Origin: Gongronella butleri
Taxonomy: Eukaryota > Mucoromycota > Mucoromycetes > Mucorales > Cunninghamellaceae
Length of the DNA: 64,000 nt
NCBI GenBank assembly: GCA_025201375.1
Contig: JAIWZP010000001.1
Location: forward strand, 124,001 to 188,000
Direction: 5' to 3'
The notes beneath the pieces were generated by a model. The model did not search any database. It was not told the DNA's origin and saw only the letters and a list, made by a program, of their open reading frames with translations. The stretch's first letter is position 1; every line of letters begins with the position of its first letter. The position numbers were made by a program, and so were the translations under genes. Shown here one piece after another: positions 13,211-32,665 of the stretch.

Positions 13211-13752
13211 GTGGGAGGGTAAGGTATACAGTAGGTTAAGGTGGCAGACAAATCACAGAGGGAAAATGAGAGCAAGGCTGCAAAGGGACGAGACGTCCAA
13301 GATGGGGAAAAAGGGGTCTATCGGACCTGAGGGCGGTATTTAAAAAAACAGGGGTGGTCTTTGGAACCCAACACAGCAAAAAAAAACTCGCTGAGGGTTG
13401 CCTTTAATGGGCCAAGGAAGAATTGATTGGGCGAATTTCCGGAAGATGCTATTGTGACAAAGATGTGCGACGCGTTTTCTCTTTTGTTTCTCCGTTTAAA
13501 AAGCAGTGGCACAGTAAAACGATCCTCATGGAAGAAGATATTCATGCGCTGCTGTTCTATTCAAGCTTCCAAGATAGCCATGATATTTGAGGATCATTTT
13601 TGGAGTGGATGAGAGCTGTGGATTTTGAGAAAGAAAAAAAAAGGGCGGGGGAGGTGATCTAAAATGAGACTTGATAAAAAAAAGGGAGCGAGCGGGGATT
13701 TGAGTTTTCCCTGTTCTTCCCCATTCCTTCTTGTTTATCCCAACACGCAGCG
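13211..13752. other. Intergenic between ABTB1 and the Fanzor gene
   Basis: This serves as the shared 5' flank of two divergent genes. I see purine-rich runs (13620-13690) and no TATA box, repeat or transposon end that I can support. Confidence 0.4.
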
Positions 13753-16700
13753 ATGCCGTTTTTTTCCATTGTAAAGGAGAAACTTGACGCAAAGGCACGT
13801 GCAGCACAACAGGAAGAACAGGGCGAGGAAGGTGAGGAAGGTGAGACGGCAGCGACGGCGGCTCGCGTCGAGCAGCAAGACGGGGAGGCACCGACTGGAG
13901 GACAACAAAGTGACGGCCAAGGACAAGTCGCGGCGGACGACGCCGCTGGAGCGACAACAGAGCAAATTCAAGCAGCATCCGAGGCCGGTACATCCAGCGA
14001 TGCTAGTGGTAAGCTAAAAAGAGCAGAAAGACGCGTCGCTAAAGAGCAGCCCTCTCACTTTTTTTTTAAAATCTTAGCCAAGCGCCAAAAAAAGGGCAAG
14101 GGACGGATGACCGCCAAACGCCGACAAAACAAGGACGAGAAGGAAAAAAAGATCAGCGCCAAGGAAGAATTTGCGGCGGCGACCAAGGCAAGTTCTGCGG
14201 CTGTACAAAATCCTTGTCCTCGATGCAAGAGCGCGGCTGCCCGGCTGGATGACGAGGCGACGGCACTGATCGAGGGACATGCGGACCCCGTTGCTGCTCA
14301 AGACGATCCTGAGGTGGAGCGCCTCCGTGCCGAGGCCAAGGCGCGCCTTGAATTGGCATACACCCACGCAAGACCTACGAATCAGCTCTGCCCAGATTAC
14401 ATCAAACGCAAGTCGGTGAAAACAAAGGAGCGCCTTGGCAAGACGCGTCGAACGACAATCAAGCATGGTCTGGCCTCTCTATTGAGCAGTGACATTACCG
14501 ACGACGATCAGCGCATCCTCCTGGATGGCATCCACAACATCGTCACATTCAATCGACATCTCGCCATCAATGCCATTCTGTTCACTCAGAAATACGTCGT
14601 CGACATCCTCCACAGCGGTGGCCACGTCCCACGTGCCCTGTTTACACAGGCGTTTTTCATTGCAGTGTTTCAGCTGATTCTTGGTAATCCAGTCTCCAAC
14701 AAGGCCCTCTTTGCGGACAACGACACGCGCACGGCCTTTTTACAAGCATTCGATCAATTCAAAATCGAGCATCCGCAAATCCACATGAACAAGCTGGTTG
14801 GTGTGAACGGCAAGCCCAATGGATTCGCAACCGTCACGGGCTACACGGCGATACAATTGGCGACAATGATGAAGAACCATGTGGTCGAAAACTTTGAGAT
14901 TTTCTTCATGCGTTACCTGGCCGCAAAGTTTGCGATGGATCATCCCGTAAGTTCATGAACAGGCCGCATCTCCACAGGATTGCTCACTTTCTTGTGGGGG
15001 TTTTCCTTTTTTTTCTTTTTTTTTTTCTTTTAGGACCTCAAGCCGCATCATTGCCGCTCTTATGCCATGTATGCGTATGACAAGGTGTGCAAAGACGAGC
15101 TGTTTCCGCCAGAGCTGCCCGACTACAAGAAGATGAAGGCGGAGCAAAAAGAGCAGCTGAAGAACGACGCGGACGATCTGGCGCAACACGCTGAAGGCAA
15201 ATTGGCGCGGGTGGGCGATTTTGTCTTAGAAGAAAAGGCTCATATTGCCGAGGCCTCGCGCACGCGGCAAGAAGCCAATGATCGAGCGCGCGACATGTCC
15301 CTGGCCAACCGCAACGCGATCATTGCCGCTTTGACGTTTAGCTCGACCAGTCGCACCGTCGTGGCCGAGTCATCTGCTGCCGGTGCCGCGCAAGAAGCAG
15401 CATTGCAAGCCACCCAAGAAGCTGCCATTGCCGCCCAAGAAGCTACCATTGCCGCGCAAGAAGCCGCCATCATTCAAGGTGATGCCCTGCAAGCCGCCGC
15501 ATTGCAATCCGCACGTGATCAAGCGGCCGAATTGCACGCTGCCGCCGCCGAGGCACAAGTCGCCGCCATGGCTCAAGCACAAGAGACAGAATTTGCCGGC
15601 AACGTGGCCGCGACGATGCACATTGCCGCGCGCAACACCCACGCGACATACAATGCCTGCGCTCATGCGGCCAACAGCCATCATGCAAATGTGATACCAT
15701 CATTGGCCGCAGCTGCAAGTGCTGCGCATGCCGCCTTGGGCCAAGCACCCGCCGCCATGACCGCCATCGCACAAGAGTCGTTTCGGCAAGCAGACCAGGC
15801 ATATCGTGACGCATTGAATTATTCAGCAGTGCTTGTGGCCACCGTCGAAAATGCACAGCGTAACGCAGACGCGTCTCACCAACTTGCCCAGCAAGCCGCG
15901 CAAAATCACGCCACAGCAATCGCCTTGTCCACAGCCAAGAACGCCGACGCCGAGGCTGCCGCTGCAGACGCCTCAGCCGCAGACGCTCAAGTCGCAAGCA
16001 TCATGGCCGCCATGGCCGCTGCCAATGACGACAACAACAACAACGACAATGGCGACGACGACGAAGACCATCCAATGGAAATCGAGCCTTTGGACGACGA
16101 CGACGTTTCCATGATGCATGCATCGGATGCCATGTCCACGAGCACCGTCGGCGCGGCAGCCATGGCACAACTCCACGTCTCCCACAATGCGTCCGTCACA
16201 ACAGCAACATTGACAAAATACCCGCATTTCTTCATCAAAGTTCTCTACGACGCCCTCAAGGAGATCGAAGCCTGGAACGATGACAATGCTGCAAGACCCG
16301 CGCAAGTCGCCACCGAGGCAACCTTTCCTTGGACCAAGCATCAATTGGAAGAAAAGGTGCCAGCCTGGGAAGACCTCAATTACCGCCGCCGATCGCGTTT
16401 GACCCGCATCATCACAAAAATCATCAATGACAAGGACCACTCGCTTGACATCACGCGCCTGCCATACCAAAAACAATTGGACGACCAAGAATCCCAAGAT
16501 GCAATCAAGGACATTGTCACGGAAACCAAGCACAAGATCAAAAACAACACCTTCATGCCCGAAATCTACATCGCCCGCCCAGCCATCCGTCTTTTTTCCG
16601 TGGTTCCCAGCCTTTCCTTCAGATTGCGCTACATCCATTGGTCCCATGAGAGCCTTTTGGGCCTTTTGACCTTTTTGGGCCTCACAAAGTACAAACAGGG

Positions 16701-17666
16701 CACGACATCAGCGCCTGACGACGGCTCGGTGCATCCTATCTTTGACCGACTCTTCAATTGGACCAAAATTCGAAAGTAAAAGATGAAAAAAGAGCCAAAA
16801 AAAAAAAAAAAAAAGAGAATGAGGCTGACCTTTTTTTTTTTTTTTCCAGACCCAAGCAAGCCGTGTTTGACAATGCGCTGGCAACTGACGGCTTGGCTCT
16901 ATCCCTGTATTACCGCATCCCAATCACCGGCAAGGCCCCTCCGCAGCTGACTCTAGACGACATTGAGCCCGAAGATCTCCAACACTGCCATGTTTGGGGC
17001 GTGGATCCGGGCGTGACTGAAGTGTTTGTGGCAGTCGATGGATCTAGCCAGGACGACAACATCTATGGCCCCACGCACCCAACATTGCCGCCGCGGCCCC
17101 CCTCTGTTCGCCATCGAGTCCGGTCTGCCTCAGTGCGGCCGCTCAAGCATGGTGCGGCGTCGAATCAGGCAAGATCGCCGTCAATACCGCGCCATCAATC
17201 CCACCGCCACGTCGAGAAAGGGCAACGGCACCAAGTCCGACGCTTTTCTGCGCACGAATTTGATCATGTGGCCGGCATCAAGCGATCCAATGCAAAAATC
17301 AAGACTTGGAAGGCCAATGATATCGACCGAGAGGGCTCGACCATCACCCACCTGGAATCCCAGCTGGCCAGCGCCAAGACGTCGATGCCCAGCAGAATGG
17401 CGCAGCATATTGAAAGCGTCCTGGCTGCCCTGCCTCGCCTCATGGCACATTACGCCCTTGCACATCAAGGCTTGCGATTTTTCAACTATCAAGGCAGGCA
17501 AAGAGCAACAGAAGAAATGGTCAGAATCCTTTGCCACGGTGGCAGCAAATATCAGCCCAAAGACACCACGGGGCAGCCGCCCGGAGATCAAAACGGTGCG
17601 AGGTAAGGAGGAGACAACGAGCGACCGACCCTGTCCCGAGAATCTTGCCATTAAGCATCATCCCCA

Positions 17667-17699
<33 letters not shown>

Positions 17700-18336
17700 G
17701 CATAGCAGGCAGACGGCATCCATGGTTTACCAAGACCTCAAGTAAGAAAGCAGGAGCAACAGCAAGAGCAACAGCCAGGTTGGTCACGAGAAACATTCAA
17801 TTGATTGTCTTTTTTTTTTTTTTTTGTCATCATCCAGGTGGCGCAAAGCACCAAACAGGCGCTTATTTGGGAAATGCCCTCTGATTTGCATCGGCGACGC
17901 GCAATTCCGGCGCATGAATTGGCGCGGCAAGCCAAGTGGACGCCCTGCGCGGCTCCGACGCGCCCTGGCCCTTGCCCAACGCGAGTGTCGACTGCTCGTC
18001 GTACAAGTACCCGAGTCATACACCAGCAAGACATGCTCATCTTGTGGTCGCCGATCCCTCACGAATGTGACAAAGCGTGACAGCGGCGTTGACAATTTCA
18101 AGCTGCACGGCGCGCTCACCTGTACCTGGTGCGCGCGGATTTGGCAGCGGGATGTCAATGCTGCGCGGAACATCCGTGCCATCGCCCTCATGAACATCAA
18201 TGGTCGCAATCTCCCCGCCTTGGACCCAGACAACAAGGACTCGCGCCCCGCCGTCTTCACAAAGGCTTACGATGAACCCGACCCCCAACAACCCCCCTTC
18301 CATTGGCTGCCAAAAAAGCAGACCATGATTGCATAA
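13753..18336 (+). CDS. Fanzor (eukaryotic TnpB-like, RNA-guided RuvC endonuclease)
   Basis: Fanzors are eukaryotic relatives of IS200/IS605 TnpB that cut DNA guided by a transposon-encoded omega RNA. My model is five exons: 13753-14008, 14078-14946, 15034-16775, 16850-17602 and 17838-18336. They give one continuous frame of 1372 residues. N-terminus: acidic Gln/Glu-rich segment (1-85), basic NLS-like segment (about 87-110), lone CPRC (132-135), then a helical region (about 150-385). Residues about 488-704 are an Ala/Gln-rich insertion followed by an Asp/Asn-rich stretch (to about 735). Catalytic part: RuvC-I VWGVDPGV (Asp1008), RRFSAHEFDHVAGIKRSN, CIGDAQF (Asp1227), ESYTSKTCSSCG (Glu1266, Cys1273/1276), LTCTWC (Cys1302/1305) and RDVNAARNI (Asp1312). 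This fits the Fanzor signature Asp, about 260 residues, TSxx, C4 zinc finger, RD. The exon 4-5 join is inferred: AG|G restores the frame across a 235-nt intron. Activity is unproven. Confidence 0.9.
15388..15475 (+). repeat. 21-bp tandem repeat within the Fanzor coding sequence
   Basis: About four degenerate units of 21 bp (type GCCGCCCAAGAAGCTGCCAT) encode AAQEAAI-like heptads. They form the start of the Ala/Gln-rich insertion, which continues in less regular form to about 16020. Confidence 0.75.
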
Positions 18337-18560
18337 TGATCGCCAGGTTATTGGTAAGCACGGACAAAGAAGGCAGTCGTGAAATGGGGAGCATAGCAGT
18401 CGTTTTGCAGACATGTGGTTGGTCACTGACTTTTGCTTTTTTTTTTTTTTTTTTTTTTTGCAGTGCAAGTACGGTCCTTTGATTTCCCCCCCCCACCACC
18501 CCAACCATGGAGAAAAAAAAATTTTTTTTTTTAAGTAACATTACATGTTAATAAATTTAT
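18337..18560 (+). other. Fanzor 3' flank: probable 3' UTR intron and poly(A) signal
   Basis: After the stop, a GTAAGC donor near 18354 and a T22-GCAG acceptor near 18462 look like a 3' UTR intron. A C-run, an A9/T10 palindrome and an AATAAA at 18550-18555 follow. In characterised Fanzor and TnpB loci the guide (omega) RNA overlaps or follows the 3' end of the gene, so this segment is the place to look for it. I see no guide-scaffold structure that I could defend. Confidence 0.45.
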
Positions 18561-18789
18561 AATCCTCCGGGATTACTCGACATGGGTTTTTGGTCAACAC
18601 CAAAACGCGTCTGGCCCCTTTTGACCGCGTTTTGCCCTGTAAATTTGCCTCCCACATCAACATCAGCCCTTATGCTATCGCTACAATCTTTTCCCAGTTT
18701 CACATAGGCCACCTTTTGCTGGGAGGCTCCCCGAGAATGTGTTCAAATGTTCCCAAAACTGGACCAGTTGATGATGGACATCGGTGTCG

Positions 18790-19060
18790 CCTCTACACTG
18801 TTTTCTTTGCATTGCTTGAATGTTGCGCTTGCAATGGGCTATGATGCATCCAAGCATGGTCATCTGCTGAGCGTAGGACTGGCACCGTGGGAAGGAGACT
18901 ATCCGAGAAAGCCCACAGCCGATTTGCTTGCGCTTTGCACCCTGCATAAATCAGAAGCCATTGCCGTTGATGATCACGGTGTGGTGAACGCTGCCAGCAC
19001 GGCGTCCTTGATGCTTACCTCTTGGGCTGATTCACGATTGCAGGGTGCATAAGAACAAAT
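18790..19060. repeat. Direct repeat unit D, copy 2 (18.9 kb)
   Basis: Same orientation as 8210-8480 and about 85% identical by eye. The plus frame is open from 18747 and shares YPRKPTADLLALCTLH and DDHGVVNAAS with copy 1. Product not recognised. Confidence 0.75.
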
Positions 19061-30478: not shown

Positions 30479-31266
30479 CAATACGCATGAAAAACGAGTG
30501 TACTGGGGGGAGGGACAAAGTAAATAAGCAAAAGAAGAAAAAAAAAAACTGGAGAGAAAAGGAAAAGGAAGAGGATCAAGACGGTGTGCAAAAAAAAAGG
30601 ATGGCAAAAAGCCCAATTCCAGGTGCCACAAGCGAATATGGTCCCCAAATTCGCGTGTGTAACCTCTTTCCATTTCTATAGCAGGGCCAGTCGCCAATGC
30701 TATTTTTGGATCTGTCAGGGACAATGAGAAAAGGCCAGGTCCAGCCCCAGCCAATCGATTTTAGGCACCAAGGAAGCCATGGGCGCTCATTTTTCATTTT
30801 TTTTTTTTTGTAGTTTTTTGGCCATCATTTGCCATTGGCAGCACAAACTTGATTGCGCGCGTGGTTTCTGTGCTTCTCACGCACACAGCAAGGAAAGGGG
30901 GCGGATCCGTTTTTGCTTTATTCGGGGCGACACAAAAAACATTTGTCAAACAATCGTCAGGAACACAGTGTCTGGCCCTCTATTTTATTGATTTCACGTC
31001 CAGATCAGAAAGCTTTTCCAAACATGGGCAAATTCAAGTGGCAGAAAATCCCCTAAAAGCAAAAGCGGGCGTCCCATCGGCCCAGCCTTGGTCCCGGTCG
31101 AAAATAACGATCGACCCGAAAAAAAAAAAAAATTGAAAATCGCCTCTATGAATGGGCGAGGGCCCACGAATTGAGTCTTTAGCACGAGGAACCAGCGCGC
31201 CCTGTTTGTTTTATTTGATTGTATTTGCTTGGCAGAATAAAAAAAGAAAATCTGAAAGTGCGACAT
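30479..31266. other. Intergenic
   Basis: Promoter side of the Thr/His-rich gene and 3' flank of the next. A-rich runs and scattered short ORFs only; nothing that I can support as a gene. Confidence 0.4.
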
Positions 31267-32665
31267 TTACACGCGTTGCTTGTTGGCCATGGCTCTGCGC
31301 ACCTTGCGGCGAAGGGCGGAAGCGATGTGCGAAGGCAATCCAGAGCTAGCATGGGCGCCGTGCGAAGGGCGCGTGTGATTGGATGGGTGCGTGACATTGA
31401 ATTTGCCATGATGATGCTTTTCTTGGCCGAGGTGCAAGCCATTGTTGCCGTGGTGCGTGGCATTGTTGCCGTGGTGCGTGACATTGTTGCCGTGGTGCGT
31501 GGCATTGAATTTGCCATGATGTTGCTTTTCTTGGCCGAGGTGCAAGCCATTGTTGCCGTGGTGCGTGGCATTGAATTTGCCAAGATCGCGCTTTTCTTGG
31601 CCGAGGTGCAAGCCATTGTTGCCGTGGTGCGAGCCATTGTGGCCGTGATGCGTCTGATTGTGGTCCGGGTGACGCGTCTCATTGAGCGCCGGCTGCGTGT
31701 GATTGAATTTGCCATGATGATGCTTTTCTTGGCCGAGGTGCAAGCCATTGTTGCCGTGATGCGAGCCATTGTGGCCGTGATGTTGCTTTTCTTGGCCGAG
31801 GTGCAAGCCATTGTTGCCGTGGTGCGTGCCTGAAGGCAGACTAGTCGGCAGGACCGTGGGCACTTGCGTTGGCTTGCCAGTGGACACCTGCGTCGGCTTG
31901 AGAGTGGGCATGTGCGACAAAGTCTCGATGCCACCGGCCAGGCTCGTGGAAATGGTGGCGGACGCCTGGTGCGTGGTCGTCGTCGTTGCCTGGTGCGTCG
32001 TGGACGACGCATTGTGCTTGGTCGTCGCGGAAGTCGTCGTCGACGACGTGCCATTGCCGCCCTCACCGCCCGAGTAGATGCCCGCACAGTTCGAGTAGTC
32101 GGCTGGCGACCACGATGCCGCAGACGCGTCATATTCTTGGCCAAAAAGATCCTTGAAAGACGGCGAGCTCATCTGTACATCATAATTGGGAAAAAAAATA
32201 CACGAAAAAATGAGTGACATGCGTGATTTTTGTTGGTTTTTTTCTTTTCTTTTTCTTTTTCTTTTTCTTTTTTTTTTTTTTTTTTGTGCAACTCACGTCC
32301 AGACCCTGGCCACCCAAGTCGACAGCAAGCACATACACGAATTTGCTCGGATCAGCAGTGTTGACCACCTTGATGCACTTGTTGCAATCGGTCGTTGAAT
32401 CAAGATTCTCCACCGCCGTGATGCGCGTCAAATCCAGCGTCGCGTACGGCATCCCGCACGCAGGAGGATTGTTGGCAAGCGCACTGACCGCTAGAAATGC
32501 ACATAAAAATTAAAGAAAATGGCGTCAATGGCTGTCAATTGCTTTTTTAAAAAGAGGATTCTTACGCAGCGCTTGGTAATCATTGGGCGTGATCTTCGCG
32601 CTGCCAGTGAGCGAGGCGCGCACCACCATGGCCGTGAGCAAGAGACTACCGGCAGTGTATTTCAT
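31267..32665 (-). CDS. Secreted double-psi beta-barrel (RlpA/barwin-like) protein with His-rich tandem repeats
   Basis: A 399-residue protein from three exons: 32665-32566, 32490-32297 and 32172-31267. It has an N-terminal signal peptide (MKYTAGSLLLTAMVVRASL). A DPBB domain of about 90 residues follows (CGMPYATLDL, CNKCIKVVN, LAVDLGGQGLDVMSSPSFKD, LFG), of the type found in fungal expansin-like and barwin-like secreted proteins. Next is a Thr-rich linker, then a C-terminal region built from five copies of HHGNNGLHLGQEK with HHGKFN-type spacers. About ten N-glycosylation sequons (NGS, NHT, NET, NQT, NAT, NVT) recur with the repeats. The tail is basic (RRKVRRAMANKQRV) and there is no GPI signal. 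Probably wall- or matrix-associated. The repeat role is unknown. Confidence 0.85.
31430..31830 (-). repeat. Tandem coding repeats in the DPBB protein gene
   Basis: Five near-identical copies of the segment that encodes NNGLHLGQEK, plus shorter HHGNN units. On the plus strand they read TGGCCGAGGTGCAAGCCATT followed by GTTGCCG. Spacing varies, and all units stay in frame. Confidence 0.9.

Follow-up and report, generated by a model that had tools for sequence, protein, structure and literature searches.

How can one stretch of DNA be both the end of a transposon and the edge of a guide RNA? In Fanzor and TnpB systems the guide scaffold has to stop where the host flank begins, yet a transposase must recognise this DNA as the end of the transposon; for published Fanzor1s the view is that the scaffold takes in the terminal repeat (PMC10711439; papers are cited by PMC number throughout). 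The question is raised again by a Fanzor gene in 64,000 nucleotides of the genome of the soil fungus Gongronella butleri (contig JAIWZP010000001.1, positions 124,001 to 188,000; this whole stretch is called the window, and its own numbering is used below). Here an intact Fanzor1 appears to sit in a non-autonomous transposon whose right end would be a 3' splice site joining the Fanzor RNA to the host flank, an explanation to which we give about an even chance of being right. The family points to another route out of the clash, in which the repeat would be spliced out, or, at the least, to an element with a choice between mRNA and guide built into it; if true, this would be a eukaryotic solution to the conflict between transposon end and guide RNA. 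A transposon end acting as acceptor of an intron placed after the stop codon is, we believe, new; it is strongly supported as sequence and unproven as RNA. Sequence shows the gene, its exons, the element borders, the selection and the recurrence of donor, branch point, tract and acceptor specifically at right ends; that splicing takes place there, and is of use to the system, we infer.

The transposon and its right end are laid out as follows.

13372-18465, plus strand: whole transposon, about 5.1 kb, non-autonomous; 94.6-94.8% identity to copies L013 and L016 ends at these borders, and the flanks differ
13369-13371, no strand: left copy of the target site duplication, CAA, equal to 18466-18468
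13372-13386, plus strand: left terminal inverted repeat (TIR), CACAGCAAAAAAAAA, the complement of the right end with one mismatch
18354-18463, plus strand: predicted terminal spliceosomal intron, with donor GTAAGC, a branch-point-like CTGAC at 18426-18430, a T tract and AG at 18462-18463
18451-18465, minus strand: right TIR, TTTTTTTTTGCAGTG, which ends in GCAGTG on the plus strand and includes the 3' splice site
18466-18468, no strand: right copy of the duplication, CAA, followed by the host flank, the presumed start of the guide

The predicted intron starts 17 nt past the stop codon and its 3' splice site coincides with the transposon right end, the TG at 18464-18465 being the first exonic bases if this end is spliced. 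The right border was placed by alignment to within the T tract, and its exact base was then taken from the shared GCAGTG.

Is this arrangement peculiar to one copy? A genome search with PF07282, a zinc-finger domain, gives 20 matches, 19 of them above the cut-off (26 come from a protein search, very weak ones among them), and the copies compared here are that of the window and the other 19, with a degraded one, L058, added later. They comprise family A (the window copy, L013 and L016; about 95% over 5.1 kb), family B (L014 and L015; 90%), family C (L022 and L023; 97%), family D (L017 and L018; 98%), family E (L012 and L020; 92% over 1.5 kb) and family F (L026 and L027; 93%), the last a different Fanzor-like group, the remaining copies being singles; L024 to L027, from different or degenerate groups, are left out of the right-end counts, as their right ends were not placed. 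At all 14 located right ends the border AG is accompanied by a pyrimidine tract and a branch-point-like CTNAY site, while tract and site occur together at 4 of the 133 YAGTG sites in the window. Nine of these borders (families A to D) come from pairwise alignment, within a few bases, with the exact base read from the shared terminal sequence; those of L009, L010, L012, L020 and L058 were located by searching for a T tract followed by [CT]AGTG, so that their AG is not independent evidence. L058 has the full set of donor, intron motif (GGGGAGCATAG, below), CTGAC, T tract and CCCAG followed by TG; in L014, GT instead of TG comes after the border AG.

The donor side is similarly shared. GTAAG lies 20-71 nt downstream of the first base of the stop codon in all nine lineages with a readable stop (20 nt in family A, 35 in B, 31 in C, 65 and also 166-169 in D, 71 in E, and 45, 25, 27 and 31 in the singles L009, L010, L011 and L019), against a background of 3.7% of 75-nt stretches in the window. 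Counted by copy, GTAAG is present in 13 of 15, with GTAAAC in L022 and GTAAAA in L020. Scored by a nine-position matrix made from 14 coding donors of the same elements (families A to C) and compared with dinucleotide shuffles, the donors of seven lineages give p values of 0.0035-0.51 singly and 1.7e-4 combined. The donor is also kept in L011, L019 and the broken copy L021, in which no intact right end was found, L021 having GCTG at its end.

Could a splice-like end simply come with transposon ends of this kind? CACTG or CACTA ends together with A/T tracts might produce one as a by-product, with donors arising by chance; the repeat itself gives a T tract and, in its CACTG and CACTA forms, an AG, and AG is indeed seen at three of nine left ends read outwards. 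A by-product should look alike at both ends, however, and the left ends differ: seven of the nine carry the CAC repeat, yet none has a branch point and none has GTAAG on that strand within 250 nt. The donor, moreover, is kept in nine of nine lineages even though most of the untranslated region (UTR) aligns poorly between them, and we regard this explanation as improbable. We think it more improbable still that the whole element acts as an introner, spliced from host transcripts by means of a host donor and its own acceptor. Introners derived from TIR elements and carrying the 3' splice site alone have been published (PMC9860276); this would leave unexplained why the element has a donor of its own past the stop codon, and where an insertion has an assigned gene it sits ahead of the start codon and outside the coding exons. 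Within the first 400 nt of the element, GT[AG]AG donors are absent from the window copy, L022 and L017, and L014 has three.

What would a splice at the transposon end achieve? In our preferred reading the element would be mobilised in trans by a transposase, and host splicing would drop 18354-18463 and fuse the Fanzor 3' exon plus TG to the host DNA past the insertion, because the right end doubles as a 3' splice site. Splicing would take the transposon end out of the RNA and bring the host flank beside a scaffold upstream of the donor, the flank sitting two bases after the exon tip in the spliced product; a host exon and poly(A) site would also be supplied to the Fanzor mRNA. We propose, tentatively and with more doubt than conviction, that these guide RNAs may be built by the spliceosome, pre-mRNA splicing attaching guide to scaffold such that each insertion would yield the scaffold plus its own flank. 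Two features bear on where a scaffold could lie.

18337-18353, plus strand: 3' UTR portion of the last Fanzor exon, 17 nt, whose tip can be folded as a hairpin abutting the donor
18386-18396, plus strand: motif GGGGAGCATAG, inside the terminal intron

A hairpin ending at the donor can form in families A, B (L015), C and E and in L009 (p 0.001-0.061 at 1000 shuffles), Fisher's combined p over 11 lineages is 7e-4, and none of 15 coding-donor controls falls below p 0.2; we consider this exon-tip hairpin suggestive. Among the three family A copies the stretch 18068-18350 is nearly free of changes, with synonymous changes in 0 of the last 97 codons in all three pairs.

Several results weigh against this reading. 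Roughly half of the lineages have no hairpin (L010, L058 and L021) or a weak one (L018, L019 and L011, p 0.126-0.80), and against positions in the same coding ends it ranks weakly, at 0.05 to 1.0 in nine lineages. Just three of the seven lineages of the donor shuffle test reach p<0.05 singly. At the coding end, where an overlapping guide scaffold should hold synonymous changes down, no clear dip is seen in family B, with 7/94 against 74/971, or in family C, with 2/93 against 39/1003; such an overlap was rejected as a general rule for this reason. As for the protein, the ratio of nonsynonymous to synonymous change (dN/dS) of the RuvC exons alone is 0.56, 0.54 and 0.31 in the family A pairs, weaker than the 0.21 of B and the 0.23 of C; this signal is weak because the changes are few (7-10 synonymous ones in each pair). 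The published omega RNA of Fanzor1 runs through the terminal repeat, with the flank as guide (PMC10432273, PMC10711439). Finally, the conserved intron motif GGGGAGCATAG could be the real scaffold or the scaffold core, which would favour a competition between splicing and guide.

In such a competition the scaffold would be the unspliced terminal intron region, with GGGGAGCATAG and the inverted repeat, running on into the flank, and the protein would be made from spliced transcripts. The motif was looked for in 12 copies, on both strands and from the start of each retrieved locus to the right end; six have it, close to the right end and nowhere else in that range, and we rejected it as a transposase site at both ends. 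In a stricter form, with ATTGG downstream, it is matched exactly at four places in the 33-Mb genome, all of them right ends of other Fanzor copies, and the reversed pattern, used as control, at none; the window copy itself does not fit the ATTGG spacing. Competition would also agree with the terminal repeat being part of published Fanzor1 omega RNAs, and within families the conservation of the intron is close to that of the last coding exon (identity, gaps aside, of 96-99% in A, 94% in B and 98% in C). It sits badly with the T tract before GCAG, which would adjoin the guide and yet varies in length (23 T in the window, 13 and 14 in the near copies), and with the folding of the intron, which in most lineages is no better than that of shuffled sequence (z -2.15 to 1.28 in seven lineages). 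No Rfam match was found at 17700-18900. We hold this competition to be possible, though we would sooner bet against it.

Might the terminal intron instead have nothing to do with the guide? It could serve to recruit an exon and poly(A) site from the host, or to give a host gene a 5' leader, and copies just upstream of host genes would persist because of this borrowing. Eight of the 14 right ends lie 82-206 nt ahead of a same-strand host start codon (p=4e-6, assuming that 8% of positions qualify, with about 11,000 genes). Six of these eight genes have a Pfam match (DnaJ, Spt4, TCP-1, CTNNBL, RPC82 HTH and UEV), the scores of three falling short of the curated cut-off, and the other two have none. 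The window copy has no AATAAA between stop codon and right end, a point in favour of borrowing. Against it, the 3' UTRs of families D and E and of L009, L019 and L058 have an AATAAA-like string immediately ahead of the donor. Three of nine left ends (the window copy, L015 and L016, by eye) are close to divergent starts as well, and targeting of promoters alone may explain the positions; with left ends near starts as well, an orientation bias of insertion was rejected and we claim nearness to promoters alone. Borrowing of this kind strikes us as possible too, at well under an even chance. For the remaining right ends, inspected by eye for frames in the 900 nt beyond, the end of an oppositely oriented gene lies beyond L017, and no clear gene is seen at the window copy, L009, L010, L022 or L023. 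Where AATAAA and donor are juxtaposed, poly(A) addition and splicing could be mutually exclusive.

Is the gene itself an intact nuclease? The preliminary description of this DNA proposed a complete Fanzor of five exons and four introns at 13753-18336, perhaps still under selection. The coding parts are as follows.

13753-14008, plus strand: exon 1, joined in frame; deposited protein P0001 agrees
14078-14946, plus strand: exon 2, joined in frame; P0001 agrees here too
15034-16775, plus strand: exon 3, joined in frame, with an Ala-rich variable block inside at about 15200-16000
16850-17602, plus strand: exon 4, start of RuvC, D1008 at 17004-17006; not in the deposited model
17709-17741, plus strand: possible mini-exon of 33 bp, both joins in frame
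17838-18336, plus strand: last coding exon, with E1266, the C4 zinc finger, D1312 and stop TAA; PF07282, E=3.5e-13

Joining the five exons gives one open frame of 1372 codons, with the stop TAA at 18334-18336, and the proposed frame is borne out by its conservation in the other copies and by matching full-length proteins of Hesseltinella vesiculosa; the extent of the gene on the plus strand stands too, while the count of four introns does not, since one further intron is predicted after the stop codon, and the transposon is larger than the gene. In L013 and L016 the frame is open from end to end when read with the exon borders of the window copy, and in family C, by these borders, it is open as far as the stop of that family. 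In family B, with borders transferred by alignment and not refitted, L014 has one stop in frame and L015 nine. Exon by exon the frame is conserved at 31-52% identity in L009 to L012, and the frame downstream of the DPG, odd by eye, is matched in the diverged copies L009, L010, L012 and L017. Among family A copies the lengths of introns 1, 2, 3 and 5 differ by amounts that are not multiples of three and the exons stay in frame; those of intron 4 differ by multiples of three. An alternative model with the 33-bp mini-exon, of 1383 codons and also in frame, is possible, and a 3-bp insertion of L016 in this region keeps the frame.

That the gene is of a known kind, a Fanzor of the Fanzor1 type, is well supported, and by homology the protein would be RNA-guided. 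PF07282 matches the last exon at 49.9 bits (cut-off 26.3), and the residues first named are in place (D1008; E1266, at 18013-18015; C1273; C1302; D1312, at 18151-18153). The pattern D-X(125,275)-[TS][TS]-X-X-C4-X(5,50)-RD, given for Fanzor1 (PMC3627910), is found with 260 residues from D1008 to TS, the C4 and 6 residues between the last Cys and the Asp of RD. D1008 stands in VDPGV, and E1266-SYTSKT-C1273 places the glutamate six residues ahead of the first CxxC, both features being invariant across five aligned sequences. DPG and a glutamate six residues before the zinc finger separate Fanzors from typical TnpBs (PMC10711439), and by its position E1266 is the alternative glutamate, distinct from the canonical one of TnpB. 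In a profile search built on nine relatives and excluding the window protein, SpuFz1 of Spizellomyces punctatus (8gkh, 3.6e-7) and GtFz1 of Guillardia theta (9cer, 4.7e-7) come first of the 22 PDB chains matched, which together with the motifs supports the Fanzor assignment made at the outset. Matches of the window's own sequence are weak: with the last exon, 9j09 Transposase (0.0028) and Cas12m come ahead of GtFz1, which is third (0.009), and with the RuvC part GtFz1 is first at 0.013.

Has selection kept it? With the variable block excluded, dN/dS is 0.32, 0.40 and 0.34 for the family A pairs, 0.30 for B and 0.22 for C, and between families 0.17 (window-L014) and 0.19 (window-L022); for the RuvC exons alone the values between families are 0.14 and 0.17. 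The earlier suggestion that the gene may still be selected is therefore supported, and with it the view that purifying selection has kept the Fanzor protein. The variable Ala-rich block of exon 3 (15200-16000) behaves differently: within family A its synonymous divergence (dS) is 0.23-0.32 against 0.04-0.05 elsewhere, 5-8 times higher, and between the window copy and L014 (A against B) it is 0.35 against 1.10 in the rest, which looks like exchange between families by recombination or gene conversion.

How is the gene represented among deposited proteins? The nearest database protein, P0001 (956 aa, hypothetical protein BC940DRAFT_599 of Gongronella butleri), agrees on introns 1 and 2, then runs into a stop inside intron 3 and loses RuvC and zinc finger; a second deposited model, P0004, is cut at the same place. 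This reading into intron 3 may come from its donor, which is GTAAAA in families A and B. P0001 and P0004 lack the catalytic half and any Pfam label, and surveys of annotated proteins could overlook the lineage on that account. Hesseltinella vesiculosa P0002 and P0003 (1246 and 1180 aa) are full-length and run through the intron 3 junction, as do the metagenomic relatives P0005 and P0006. These two proteins, compared at protein level, are similar in length to the window Fanzor and share 31-32% identity with it over 62% of the searched region. P0002 and P0003 are closely similar to each other and differ in their C-terminal tails, a possible site of a 3' intron or flank join. From Gongronella, a member of the Mucorales, an intact, selected and very long Fanzor1 lineage is gained.

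What kind of transposon carries it? CACTA (EnSpm) transposons have CACTA or CACTG ends and a 3-bp duplication, and the element resembles them in part. Left ends read CAC[A/T]G or CACTTC and right ends [CT]AGTG, and a 3-bp match is present in four of the seven copies with a CAC left end (the window copy, L015 with GAT, L017 with ATA and L018 with AGA), no matching pair being found in L013, L016 (CAG/CAA) or L014. The left end of family C differs from the CAC repeat, and a search for those of L009, L010, L012 and L020 did not find them. The Fanzor is the sole gene recognised within 13372-18465: a Pfam scan of four long frames gave PF07282 alone above the cut-off and no PF02992 transposase. Elsewhere in the genome PF02992 has nine matches; around the one such gene examined (7.8 kb) no repeat in common with the element ends was found, and no CACTA partner could be linked. 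Outside the element, the left flanks of L013 and L016 share GCGTC before the presumed duplication and those of L017 and L018 share GCTTC; such common bases of separate insertions could be a target preference or a target-adjacent motif (TAM).

Some IStrons carry TnpB. IStrons, in which an intron goes with a transposon, resemble the present element in that splicing and mobility share one unit, but their intron is a bacterial self-splicing group I intron (PMC4227781), whereas here it would be a short spliceosomal intron at one end; the window has no Rfam match at gathering thresholds, hence no group I intron match. TIR introners similarly bear a splice site in the terminal repeat, but these give rise to new introns within genes and leave the transcript as complete units, with median family lengths of 30-654 nt (PMC9860276). 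SpuFz1 and GtFz1 align with the window protein in the RuvC Asp, the shifted glutamate, the C4 finger and RD/RN, and SpuFz1 too is carried by a TIR transposon (PMC10432273); they differ in that the window gene has several introns and a transposon end predicted to be a splice acceptor, and its product is about twice the 633-aa SPu-1 protein, which is a single frame (PMC3627910). The case of the SfAV Fanzor1 right-element RNA (reRNA) is alike in its non-autonomous TIR element with Fanzor1 alone and short duplications, but there TIR and duplication are predicted to lie within the scaffold (PMC10711439), while here the TIR would leave as intron. Fanzor1 was already known in Mucorales, in Rhizopus, Phycomyces and Mucor, and the elements ROr-4, PBl-3 and MCi-4 likewise hold it in TIR elements without a transposase of their own; these have MuDr-type repeats and 9-bp duplications, in contrast to CAC...GTG and 3 bp here (PMC3627910).

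Among the matches listed for open-access titles and abstract openings, with subscription literature mostly outside, none describes a spliced Fanzor guide or a transposon end that is a splice site, and no open-access match links Fanzor with CACTA. The main texts of PMC10432273, PMC11423790, PMC10711439 and PMC3627910 do not contain the word 'intron'.

Further observations concern other parts of the genome. L026 (3330-6741) and L027 (3696-7110, both in gene-strand orientation) hold a second Fanzor-like gene, one long frame with stops, 93% identical between the two and without the CAC ends of families A, B and D. Transposase_21 genes on contigs C53, C62, C98 and C31 form pairs that are 99.7-99.8% identical over 2.7-2.9 kb, reflecting either very recent transposition or haplotypes separated in the assembly. 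Within the window, the minus strand at 31179-32292 has long open reading frames with a repeated, His/Asn-rich unit of the GNNGLHLGQEK type.

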